From an uncultured Pelagibacteraceae bacterium (lineage in GTDB: Bacteria; Pseudomonadota; Alphaproteobacteria; Pelagibacterales; Pelagibacteraceae): 32,189 bases of DNA. The translations under genes were made by a program, and so were the position numbers. Each line of letters begins with the position of its first letter. Within the stretch, counting starts at the first letter, position 1. The DNA is taken from assembly GCA_902516395.1 (NCBI GenBank), contig CABXYN010000013.1, forward strand, positions 1-32,189, in the 5' to 3' direction. Below, piece by piece: positions 21,633 to 28,956 of this stretch. The notes under the pieces were generated by a model. That model saw nothing but the letters and a program-made list of their open reading frames with translations. It searched no databases and was not told the origin of the DNA.

Positions 21633-23474
21633 GTGGAACGTATAATTACAAAATCATTTGCAAGATTGATGGGCAGAGGTGTCCACAGAGGTTTTATCAC
21701 TTACGAAGAGTTAAACAAATCCCTAGGAAAAAGAAACTTATCCGATGACAATTTGGAACAAGCTTTTCTTCATATTTTAGATGAAAAAATAATTTTAGTT
21801 GAAAAGAAAGCTGATTTCAAAGTTCTTAGAAAAAAAGATAATGGCTCAAAAGAAGAAGGTAAATCAATTGAAAAAAGTGATGACCCAATTAGAATGTATT
21901 TAAGAGAAATGGGAGGAGTTGAACTTCTCTCGAGAGAAGGTGAAATTGCAATTGCCAAAAGAATAGAAGCTGGAAAAGATGTAATGTTAAATGCACTTTC
22001 TCAAAGCCCAATTACCGCTCAACAGTTTTTTGAATGGAATACAAAACTTCAGAATGATGAAATATTGGTTAGAGAGATAATCGATATAGATACAAATTAC
22101 ATGGAAGATGAGGATACAGGTCAAAGTGCAAAACAAAAAAAAGCCGATGATGGAAACGATAACCAAAATAACAATGGAGATGGATCAAGCAATAATGAGG
22201 ATGACGAATTTAATCCTACTCTGGCTGCGATGGAAACCGAGATTAAACCTAAAGTTTTACAAACTGTTTATAACCTGACGAAAGAATACAATAAACTAAT
22301 AAAGTATCAAAAAGAGAAATTAGATTGTTTATTAAATTCTAAACAATTTTCAACCTCAAAAGAAAAAAATTATAAAAAAATCGTAGATGATATTTTAGAA
22401 AATATTAAAACACTTCAATTATCTCCATCTGTTTTAGAAGAATTGGTTCAAAAGCATTATTTAGAAAACCGTAAGATCATATCATTAGAAGGAACTCTTT
22501 TAAGACTTGCTTTAAACGAAAAAATTCCAAGAGATGAATTTATAAAGTTCTATGTTGGTAATGAAATTAACCCTAAGCTAAAAACTTTTTTAGACACAAA
22601 TGAAGTATGGAAAAAATTTTTTTCAAAATATAAAATAGAATTTATAAATATTAAAGACAGATTAATAGAAATAAGCAATAAGCTTGGTATATCAGTCACA
22701 GACTATAAACAAATGGTTAGCCGTATCCAAAAAGGTGAAAAAGAGTCTCGCATAGCTAAAAAAGAAATGGTTGAGGCAAATCTTAGATTGGTAATATCAA
22801 TTGCTAAAAAATACACAAATAGAGGTCTACAATTTTTAGACTTAATTCAAGAGGGTAATATTGGATTAATGAAAGCAGTTGATAAGTTTGAGTATAGAAG
22901 AGGATATAAGTTTTCAACATACGCAACGTGGTGGATAAGACAAGCAATCACAAGATCAATTGCAGATCAAGCTAGAACAATCAGAATTCCAGTTCATATG
23001 ATTGAAACAATCAATAAAATTGTAAGAACACAAAGATTAATTCTAAGTGAATTTGGTAGAGAAGCTACACCTGAAGAATTGGCAAAAAAATTAAGAATGC
23101 CACTTGAAAAAGTTAGAAAAGTTCTAAAAATTTCAAAAGAACCAGTTTCGCTTGAGAAACCTGTAGGTGATGAAGAAGATAGTAGCTTAGGAGATTTCAT
23201 AGAAGATACCAAAGCGCTGGCTCCTTTAGAGCAAGCAATAAAATCAAATTTAAGTGAAGCAACTACAAAAATTTTATCTACTTTAACACCGAGGGAAGAA
23301 AGGGTGCTCAGAATGCGTTTTGGTGTTGGTATGAATACAGATCATACTTTAGAAGAAGTTGGACTTCAGTTTTCTGTAACTAGAGAAAGAATTCGACAAA
23401 TTGAGGCAAAGGCACTCAGAAAATTAAAACATCCAAGTAGATCTAAACAGCTTAAAAGTTTCTTAGAAAGTTAA
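21633..23474 (+). CDS. rpoD: RNA polymerase primary sigma factor (sigma-70)
   Basis: Housekeeping sigma factor, 613 residues. Order: a short region 1.1 ([19 protein letters not shown], residues about 15-35); region 1.2 ([21 protein letters not shown]); an acidic, asparagine-rich stretch near residues 155-195; the large non-conserved region; region 2 with [19 protein letters not shown] and the -10 reader [19 protein letters not shown]; region 3 ([12 protein letters not shown]); region 4 with [14 protein letters not shown] and the -35-reading helix [17 protein letters not shown]. Start is GTG at 21633; an in-frame ATG at 21669 is the alternative. Compared with E. coli the N-terminus before region 1.1 is trimmed. 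65 bp after dnaG; a tRNA starts 1 nt after its stop. Confidence 0.97.
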
Positions 23475-23475
23475 A

Positions 23476-23550
23476 GGGCCGTTAGCTCAATAGTAGAGTA
23501 CTGCATTGACATTGCAGGGGTAGTTGGAGCGTAACCAACACGGCCCACCA
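23476..23550 (+). tRNA. tRNA-Val (anticodon GAC), unusual D- and T-loops
   Basis: Cloverleaf with encoded CCA: acceptor 23476-23482/23540-23546 (7 bp), D stem 23485-23488/23496-23499 (one G-U), anticodon stem 23501-23505/23513-23517, anticodon GAC at 23508-23510, T stem 23523-23527/23535-23539. All stems pair. The loops are abnormal: the D-loop is only AATAGTA (one G, no GG) and the T-loop is AGCGTAA instead of a TTCRANY type. C56 and one D-loop G remain. It starts one base after the rpoD stop, so it is presumably cut out of the rpoD transcript. Valine identity bases A35, C36 and A73 are present. Either a functional tRNA with a rebuilt elbow or a decaying one. Confidence 0.8.
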
Positions 23551-23569
23551 TTAGAGTAATTATCTACAA

Positions 23570-23596
23570 TTGATAACCGAACAAAAATGATATAAT
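23570..23596 (+). promoter_or_regulatory. Predicted promoter for the CAU-anticodon tRNA
   Basis: TGATATAAT at 23588-23596 is an extended -10 (TGn plus perfect TATAAT); TTGATA at 23570-23575 is a possible -35 with a short 15-bp spacer. Initiation would fall near 23603, about 7 nt before the tRNA. This gives the second tRNA its own promoter, independent of rpoD. Confidence 0.6.
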
Positions 23597-23609
23597 TATT
23601 GGATGTTTT

Positions 23610-23686
23610 GGGCCTGTAGCTCAGTTGGTTAGAGCAGTACACTCATAATGTATTGGTCCCAGGTTCGAGTCCTGGCGGGCCCACCA
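23610..23686 (+). tRNA. tRNA with CAU anticodon (Ile2 or elongator Met)
   Basis: Complete, canonical tRNA with encoded CCA. Acceptor GGGCCTG/CGGGCCC, D-loop with GG, anticodon CAT at 23644-23646 in loop CTCATAA, T-loop TTCGAGT. It is not the initiator: the first acceptor pair is a normal G-C and there is no run of three G-C pairs in the anticodon stem. The variable region (TGGTC after the stem) and GGGCC-type acceptor resemble tRNA-Ile2, whose C34 is turned to lysidine by TilS, but elongator Met cannot be excluded from sequence alone. Confidence 0.93.
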
Positions 23687-23699
23687 AATACAAATAAAA

Positions 23700-23764
23700 T
23701 CAACGTTTAAGAGTCTTAAATAATCTTAATTAAGATAAAAACGCTTAAAAATATTTTTCGTTGA
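23700..23764. repeat. Nested and tandem inverted repeats downstream of the tRNAs
   Basis: Two adjacent palindromes share the TCTTAA/TTAAGA core: TTTAAGA-G-TCTTAAA (23706-23720) and the perfect ATCTTAATTAAGAT (23723-23736). They are enclosed by a 6-bp outer pair TCAACG (23700-23705) / CGTTGA (23759-23764). No classic U-tract follows, so a simple terminator is not the obvious reading. They begin a 508-bp stretch (23687-24194) with no intact recognisable gene. Confidence 0.45.
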
Positions 23765-23846
23765 GAGCGGGGGTGGGTCATGATGTTTTTTGCAATGTTA
23801 TGGTCGCTTGCTTGTGTAGAGCTATTGAATTTGTTAATCTAATACT

Positions 23847-24118
23847 ATGAAAACGCTTCCAAGAAATATTTAGGGAATGAGAGGATCATGGTTTGCTGAT
23901 GCAACTGGTTATACAGAATATTTGCCAATCATTTGGAGCTGTGGGTGTAATGGAAAAATTATCTTTTAGAAACTGGCTGGATGACAAATGAGAGTGTTCC
24001 ACAATCAAAAAGAAAAAGTTTTAAAAATTTTTATAGAGAAAATATTAACAAAGAAATACCTATAGCATTAGCAGAAGGAAAAGATAAATTTAAGTATTTA
24101 CATGAAATAAAAGAATAA
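23847..24118 (+). pseudogene. Broken small gene of unknown function
   Basis: Two reading-frame pieces join into one protein-like sequence. From ATG 23877 a 30-residue frame reads MRGSWFADATGYTEYLPII then WSCGCNGKIIF-stop. In the next frame, NYLLETGWMTNESVPQSKRK and onward runs to TAA at 24118. One extra A in the A5 run at 23954-23958 would fuse them as GKNYLLETGW, giving about 80 residues. The first frame also continues upstream past a TAG (23871-23873) to an ATG at 23847 (MKTLPRNI). I do not recognise the family. It is read as a relic with one indel and perhaps one nonsense codon. The 45-residue ORF from ATG 23981 could still be translated. Confidence 0.4.
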
Positions 24119-28495: not shown

Positions 28496-28851
28496 GCCAG
28501 ATAAAAGACTTATCGCTTTAATTTATTAAAGAGGAAAGTCCGGGCTCTACAAAGACACAGTGCCAGTTAATGGCTGGCGGGGGCGACCCTAGGGATAGTG
28601 CCACAGAAAATAAACCGCCTTATCAAGGCAAGGGTGAAAAGGTGTGGTAAGAGCACACCGGCTAAGTTGGTAACAGCTAGTGCATGGAAAACCCCACTGG
28701 GAGCAAGACTGAATAGGGATGACACTGTTAGAAATAACAAAAAGCAGTCTTTGGCTAGTCATCTGGGTTAGTTGCTTGAACCTTAAAGTGATTTAAGGTC
28801 TAGAGAAATGATAAGTTTAAACGACAGAACCCGGCTTATATTTTATCTGGC
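28496..28851 (+). ncRNA. rnpB: RNase P RNA (bacterial type A)
   Basis: Catalytic RNA that trims tRNA 5' ends. It shows the universal 5' block GAGGAAAGTCCGGGCTC (near 28541-28557) and the 3' block ACAGAACCCGGCTTAT (near 28825-28840), which pair in the P4 core. P1 is an 11-bp helix: GCCAGATAAAA (28496-28506) with TTTTATCTGGC (28841-28851), which fixes both ends. Length of about 356 nt and G+C content far above the surroundings fit. A possible promoter is TTGAAC (28462-28467) with TATTGT (28484-28489) 16 bp later. Confidence 0.96.
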
Positions 28852-28956
28852 ATTTACAAGTTAAGAAAAATCTAAAAACAATATTATTTTTAAAAAATAA
28901 AAAATTTGGATCTTTTTTTTGAGAACAAAATAAGAATAAATAATATATTTTATATA

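Follow-up and report, generated by a model that had tools for sequence, protein, structure and literature searches.

The tRNA-Val(GAC) gene described here is predicted from its sequence to give a working tRNA for the valine codons GUU and GUC, and its elbow has very probably moved from the usual state (G18-U55, U54-A58, a loose 16/59 combination and a pyrimidine at position 60) to a different, co-evolved one. This state is termed type II, and it is defined by A18/G55, A54/U58, A60 and one of four 16/59 combinations, U/A, A/U, U/U or C/C; a half-way elbow, with A18/G55 and U54/A58, is termed type I, both terms being coined here. A broader proposal, on which the balance is about even, is that type II represents a second elbow fold, built from A18/G55, A54/U58, a 16-59 pair, A60 and a 19-56 platform, which does without m5U54 and Psi55, originated repeatedly, in different tRNAs, among marine Alphaproteobacteria with streamlined genomes and is in wide use among the tRNAs encoded by viruses. 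The elbow is deemed near-invariant, as it is touched by RNase P, modification enzymes, the ribosome and EF-G; type II suggests that this part of tRNA, though near-universal, can be built in a second way that works.

The window, that is, the whole stretch of 32,189 nucleotides that was analysed, has the following features at and around the gene:

21633-23474, + strand: rpoD, RNA polymerase sigma factor (NF004208 RpoD, 775.5 bits)
23476-23550, + strand: tRNA-Val(GAC), 75 bases, CCA encoded, type II elbow (ARAGORN, Rfam, RNAfold)
23489-23495, + strand: D-loop AATAGTA, read as A14 A15 U16 A18 G19 U20 A21
23508-23510, + strand: anticodon GAC (ARAGORN)
23518-23522, + strand: variable loop GGGTA, with A48
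23528-23534, + strand: T-loop AGCGTAA, read as A54 G55 C56 G57 U58 A59 A60
23610-23686, + strand: tRNA with a CAU anticodon and a canonical elbow, called tRNA-Met and presumably tRNA-Ile(CAU)

Regarding its fold, positions 23476-23550 scored 53.6 bits with Rfam RF00005, for which the gathering score is 29; all 21 stem pairs form, and the four-helix cloverleaf is the minimum-energy structure, with a z of -3.74 equalled by 1 of 200 shuffles (RNAfold). An earlier note on this DNA had reported four paired helices, a D-loop AATAGTA devoid of the G18-G19 doublet and a T-loop AGCGTAA, and all of this was borne out. The frame is that of an elongator class I tRNA, with stems of 7, 4, 5 and 5 bp, U8, A14, A21, U33 and a CCA end. 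The seven-base D-loop has one G left, best read as G19, so that A18 replaces G18 and G19-C56 is possible: the usual G18-U55 and U54-A58 are gone, replaced by A18/G55 and A54/U58, and G19-C56 is kept, in agreement with the note's view that G18-Psi55 cannot form and that G19-C56 still can. Hence, of the canonical elbow set (G18 G19, U54 U55 C56 and A58), G18, U54, U55 and A58 are replaced, and with U16/A59 and A60 the gene has all the features of type II; as neither 54 nor 55 is U, m5U54 and Psi55 cannot be made. The replaced positions had been listed correctly, but the partner change at 16-59 and A60 had been overlooked. As for A48, which the note had singled out, it is present and lies opposite A15, but A15/A48 is not a rule for type II, A15/C48 being commoner in viruses (167 of the 214 viral tRNAs with A18, G19, G55, C56 and A54/U58).

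As for its context, the tRNA starts one base past the rpoD stop codon. A scan of 23300-23900 for promoters and terminators returned one promoter-like match, against 1.6 in shuffles, and no terminator. The spacing between the tRNA-Val and the CAU tRNA is about 60 bases in the window and about 1-2 kb in L016, L022 and G003:C1:1025231-1027291, where an insertion may lie between the two. Further along the window, a bacterial RNase P RNA of class A (28497-28854, 292.5 bits) is ordinary. In the assembled genome (1.07 Mb in 47 contigs, 76.9% complete, 28 RF00005 matches) a single Val(GAC) was found and the other tRNA-Val is a canonical UAC; likewise, the relative G003 (99% complete, 33 RF00005 matches) has one GAC and one UAC tRNA-Val, so that the single copy supposed by the note holds in both, and the pairing of a second, canonical GAC gene with unconserved loops in relatives, its argument for a pseudogene, occurs in neither. 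GUU and GUC make up 176 of the 287 valine codons of ten window ORFs.

The gene is conserved well beyond this contig. In a search of 99 family genomes, its 75 bases were found unchanged in 12 further genomes of the genus; they also recur at 148 collected loci, in which some genomes are represented twice, and at at least 110 loci among the matches listed in a genome scan. The named genomes that carry the same gene are Pelagibacteraceae (SAR11) records, and the window is accordingly assigned to SAR11. A base-calling error, raised by the note as a caveat, is thus unlikely, since these loci come from many separate assemblies. Within the genus, a covariance-model match at E 1e-16 was obtained in 144 of 151 genomes, and 138 of them score at least 95 bits, a band that is type II wherever the sequence was read; of the six below 95 bits, the two that were read are canonical (G105, G109), and the four intermediate scorers are known by score alone.

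Among eight distinct Val(GAC) orthologues from five genera, aligned as the note had suggested, 168 of 168 stem cells are paired, 12 of the 21 pairs show changes on both sides, and the covariation score is 0.510 against a shuffle mean of 0.119; their D- and T-loops vary just at 16, 57 and 59, plus one inserted base. In a larger set, comprising 21 distinct Val sequences with the type II elbow, the D-loop is AAWAGTA in 18 and AATAGAA, AATAGTG or AATAGTTA in the rest, while 16/59 is U/A in 14 and A/U in seven, with no other combination. In the other genera of the family, where reading was guided by score and does not amount to a census, Val(GAC) is canonical in g2, g5, g6, g7, g9 and part of g3 and g4, and type II in the other part of g3 and g4, in g10 and in three g12 genomes; in the sister family f2, the three Val(GAC) genes read are all canonical. 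G051 also has, at L268 5211-5266, an exact copy of 56 bases from the 3' part of the tRNA-Val, which is remote from the intact gene and on the opposite strand.

Other cellular tRNAs also have the elbow of the tRNA-Val(GAC). The tRNA-His(GUG) of G003 (L287 101-174) has D- and T-loops identical to those of the tRNA-Val(GAC), and it is the one GUG tRNA among the 33 RF00005 matches of that genome. Thirty-one His genes were read, 27 of them at genus loci that were selected around Phe or His matches and the remainder from other genera and f2: eight have A54/U58, two G54/G58, two are type I (G208, G009) and 19 canonical. A His model score of at least 97.9 bits was reached in 19 genus genomes, of which eight were read, giving six type II and two G54/G58 (G149, G194); outside this high-scoring list, the G176 tRNA-His places the loops AATAGTA and AGCATAA on different stems. 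The tRNA-His of G174 has the D-loop AAAATTA and the T-loop AGAGTTA, in which U19/A56 replaces G19/C56, with A16/U59 and 21 of 21 pairs. The same or further changed His elbows in the genus are found at L287 (G003), L293, L295, L305-L310 and L322.

Outside the family, tRNA-Thr(GGU) is type II at 11 of 11 loci read in the sister family f2, and in 19 of 23 matches in the alphaproteobacterial family f10, in which 32 genomes were searched; the remaining four f10 genes, from other genera, have G18/U55 with G54/G58, and the Thr(GGU) of G003 is canonical. The half-way state is represented by the Val of G092, of one Armatimonadota record and of one Amesbacteria record, and by tRNA-Phe(GAA), which is type I in 24 and canonical in 11 of the 35 loci read (L057 1501-1575, L292-L331), a count that excludes L310 and L315 because they hold a different GAA tRNA. 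The latter (G194 and G238, respectively) has another D-arm and a canonical GG/TTC elbow, and it lies about 650 bases from the tRNA-His, at the site of the tRNA-Phe of relatives; perhaps it has replaced the tRNA-Phe.

Type II is rare across sampled cellular genomes: of 385 class-sampled genomes, seven matched its pattern (three from SAR11 and four from f10), a backward control pattern giving one match, and the narrower U16/A59 pattern was matched in 1 of 349 phylum-sampled genomes, namely the genome studied here. Pairs of positions were tabulated for tRNAs with seven-base D-loops, which comprise 75 of 139 distinct cellular and 697 of 1586 distinct viral sequences. These were collected with a cloverleaf scan requiring at least 20 of 21 pairs, U8, A14, A21, U33, R37, 7-10 bases in the D-loop and 4-5 in the variable loop, criteria that exclude damaged genes, tRNAs with long arms and loops like AATAGTG. 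Among the 75 cellular tRNAs, 18/55 is A/G in 43 and G/U in 32, and each of the 28 distinct A54/U58 sequences in the cellular cloverleaf set combines A60 with a complementary 16/59 (U/A 20, A/U 8).

As for viruses, the set comprises 325 loci (2.88 Mb) obtained with four pattern scans, among the matches listed, and the cloverleaf scan recovered 1586 distinct class I tRNAs from it but none when the sequences were reversed. The type II pattern had at least 120 matches on viral contigs, and more than 200 distinct type II tRNAs were found on the contigs listed. At 18/55, the 697 viral tRNAs have G/U in 408, A/G in 278 and other combinations in 11; at 54/58, they have U/A in 406, A/U in 236, G/G in 27, A/A in 15, C/A in 12 and G/A in one. 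Thus, the swap of 54 and 58 that the note had suspected is a true covarying state, seen in 236 of 697 distinct sequences, although these loci were picked by type II patterns and the type II share among them is no estimate of frequency. Within the 236 A54/U58 tRNAs, 16/59 is A/U in 105, U/A in 85, U/U in 44 and C/C in two, with A/A in none, and A60 is present in 233; in the viral U54/A58 tRNAs, 16/59 is mixed. Once the scan-pattern matches are removed, 18/55 in the remaining 511 tRNAs is G/U in 408, A/G in 92 and other in 11, and the 50 A54/U58 sequences left have 16/59 as A/U (29), U/A (10), U/U (9) or C/C (2). In a separate control of the pattern matches, with a looser cloverleaf (at least 19 of 21 pairs and, of the base criteria, just U33 and G53-C61), cloverleaves backed 112 of 127 U16/A59, 117 of 132 A16/U59 and 76 of 84 U16/U59 matches, and none of the five A16/A59 ones.

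The anticodons of the 214 viral tRNAs with A18, G19, G55, C56 and A54/U58 correspond to 15 amino acids and one stop codon. Known viruses are represented by Acinetobacter phage Ac42, with the type II tRNA-Met annotated as Ac42t06, and, by contig identity, by Halogranum tailed virus 1, with a GUC-anticodon tRNA in the A16/U59 form. Canonical and type II tRNAs stand together in 127 of 265 viral loci (fifteen classes, de-duplicated sequences), hence the state is a property of the individual tRNA rather than of the whole virus. Arginine is missing from the 214 (0 of 214), against 148 of 1122 tRNAs with GG and U55-C56, where the GG label of the D-loop class counts also catches D-loops such as AGGAGTA, a fault that does not affect the seven-base tables. 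ArgRS perhaps needs a D-loop base.

Taken together, the contacting residues of the elbow change jointly, and the restricted 16/59 combinations and A60 appear once 54/58 departs from U/A. The 18/55 and 54/58 contacts are not welded together, since A54/U58 also occurs with G18/U55 (19 of 236 viral tRNAs). The ordinary U54/A58 viral tRNAs show a weak 16/59 association too (0.083 bits, above all 1000 shuffles), so that shuffles alone are no proof of pairing, and relatedness inflates such tests. In the proposed fold, G19-C56 would be retained as the outer platform; position 16 of the D-loop would pair with 59 of the T-loop and add support, a three-dimensional contact suggested by the covariation; 54/58 and 18/55 would still touch, in a different geometry. 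The resulting tRNA-Val(GAC) would be charged and used. A strictly Watson-Crick 16-59 pair is weakened as a description because U/U is common in viruses, and a pair U20-G55 between the D- and T-loops was dropped, as the type II Val of two genomes has A20 and the type II His of two has C20. If the fold exists, viruses could benefit from it by not depending on host modification or by evading defences that attack tRNAs.

A search of the open-licence literature found no description of the type II elbow in SAR11 or phages. Escherichia coli suppressor tRNAs selected in the Steinberg laboratory are reportedly active with non-standard 54-58 and D/T contacts; these are laboratory selections that may include parts of the type II state. 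The paper on SAR11 tRNA signatures dropped sequences whose secondary structure was unusual, and its main text has neither "D-loop" nor "T-loop" (PMC3937112). Among the nearest natural cases are eukaryotic AGC-tRNA-Ala and initiator tRNA, which have A54/A58 and a D-loop that gains U17, and in which 16 and 59 are proposed to form a trans pair (Westhof et al. 2020, PMC7566577). In common with these, the tRNA-Val(GAC) has A54, a purine at 15 with A48, a purine at 60 and a 16-59 partner; the eukaryotic tRNAs, instead, keep A58, and the available text of that paper mentions no 18/55 change, whereas the tRNA-Val(GAC) has U58, A18/G55 and a seven-base D-loop, thus lacking both the A54/A58 combination and the extra D-loop base (PMC7566577).

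Contacts between 16 and 59 of the D- and T-loops are described, in the accessible portions of the sources, for tRNA-Cys (PMC7566577) and tRNA-Sec (PMC7609411), and the U/U and C/C combinations of viral type II tRNAs match these pyrimidine-pyrimidine contacts (PMC7566577, PMC7609411). In tRNA-Sec, however, 16/59 adds to the canonical D/T contacts, whereas in type II both 18/55 and 54/58 are replaced (PMC7609411). Finally, tRNA-Pyl likewise lacks G18 G19 and T-Psi-C and is yet functional, but, according to the same partly available article, it has a five-base D-loop, an elongated anticodon stem and no G19-C56, while the tRNA-Val(GAC) has an ordinary frame, with a seven-base D-loop, a 5-bp anticodon stem and G19-C56 (PMC7609411).

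The elbow was probably switched in place, since canonical and half-way versions exist. Of the 20 genus loci tested, 15 have rpoD next to the Val gene, namely 13 of 18 type II loci and both canonical ones (G105, G109); at the other five type II loci, rpoD is absent from the stretch read. When the loops are set aside, the 53 remaining body positions of the window tRNA are 85% identical to those of the canonical G105 and G109 genes and 74% identical to those of the type II Val of G154 and of a canonical Val of f2; no viral tRNA with a body of the same length exceeds 74%. The states found suggest an order in which A18/G55 came first and A54/U58 second.

As for what may have permitted the change, the TruB model TIGR00431 had no match in any of eight genus genomes (G000, G003, G017, G035, G043, G051, G063 and G078), one of which is 76.9% complete and the others at least 99%, while it matched G009, G457 and 14 of 14 controls, 10 of the controls over the cut-off. 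The T-arm sequence of TruB substrates is given as GUUYRANYC, and Psi55 is called universally conserved, in the available text of PMC7912444. Loss of TruB in the genus, a likely setting for the change, would remove one reason to keep U55, and its absence fits a relaxed need for this base; as the sole cause it was rejected, because G457 combines TruB with a type II tRNA-Thr and G009 combines it with a type I tRNA-His.

An unlikely but arguable alternative is relaxed drift, by which the elbow, after TruB was lost, wanders among near-neutral states with no fold of its own. It would account for TruB going undetected in eight of eight genus genomes and for elbow types being mixed, within the genus for His and Phe and within viral loci. 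However, drift predicts mixed states, and these are rare: just 11 of 697 viral tRNAs depart from G/U and A/G at 18/55, and 54/58 is confined to five states and one single sequence. Moreover, A54/U58 goes with A60 in 233 of 236 cases and with four 16/59 combinations only, and genomes that do have TruB contain A18/G55 or type II states as well.

That type II is a phage type of tRNA taken over by SAR11 is very unlikely, even though it is abundant on viral contigs and rare in the sampled genomes (7 of 385 and 1 of 349): in its body, the gene most resembles canonical copies from the genus that share its rpoD site (85%, against 74% or less for viral tRNAs), exact scans with its 69-base core or its 31-base 3' part had no match on viral contigs, and blastn at E 0.01 had none to named phages. 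A swap of the loops alone by recombination may have occurred. Two viral type II tRNAs searched against named phages by blastn at E 0.001 gave no match. An integration site as the cause of the conservation was rejected too, given the lack of viral matches to the 31- and 69-base exact queries and the single 56-base 3' fragment, in one genome.

Slimmer still are the chances of the recent decay that the note had put forward as its second option, that is, a pseudogene in a genome in which Val(UAC) decodes all valine. A canonical Val(UAC) is indeed present; in G003 just a UGC tRNA was found for Ala and just a UGG tRNA for Pro, so that UNN tRNAs may read NNY codons there. Val(UAC) may read GUU and GUC, in which case tRNA-Val(GAC) could be dispensable. 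In addition, 7 of 151 genus genomes have no covariance-model match at E 1e-16, most genomes being incomplete, and one type II copy, that of G180, has a stem mismatch. In G157, an intact canonical Val(GAC) is accompanied by a type II copy (L094, near 501-575) that has decayed, its stems mismatched and its C56 changed, so loss also happens. Against decay of the gene studied here stand its 21 of 21 pairs, the covariation of its stems across genera, loops that are near-constant over the genus, and the same loops in tRNA-His, the lone GUG tRNA among the 33 matches of G003, and in tRNA-Thr(GGU). The marks of a pseudogene, broken stems and no conservation in relatives, are lacking, and covarying stems together with conservation make a pseudogene unlikely: judged by its letters and those of its orthologues, the tRNA-Val(GAC) is not decaying. 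The note's other option, a compensated elbow, is the one that prevails, given the covarying orthologue stems, the near-constant loops and the recurrence of the joint replacement in tRNA-His, tRNA-Thr(GGU) and viral tRNAs.

Finally, a non-decoding job (regulation or aminoacyl transfer), with the elbow keeping the tRNA from the elongation factor or the ribosome, has precedent in specialised tRNAs of other bacteria, and the 18-55 contact reportedly matters for translocation, but it is extremely improbable, as the same elbow serves viral tRNAs for 15 amino acids and one stop codon and cellular His, Val and Thr, and its presence in so many anticodon classes suits general decoding.

The co-evolved elbow matters beyond valine decoding because canonical, half-way and rebuilt versions exist within one genus, which makes the elbow contacts that are needed directly testable; the same series bears on whether loss of Psi55 synthesis permits change, and on why many viral tRNAs use type II. 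It should also be noted that such tRNAs escape gene finders: of the 305 viral cloverleaves that the pattern-match control confirmed, ARAGORN called 113, and it missed the tRNA-His(GUG) of G003. Other coupled states occur in viruses, namely T-loops with A54 U55 C56 and GG D-loops (78 distinct), G54/G58 and C54/A58; as for 19/56, variants among the 697 viral tRNAs are A/U in 21 and U/A in two (L340-L664).
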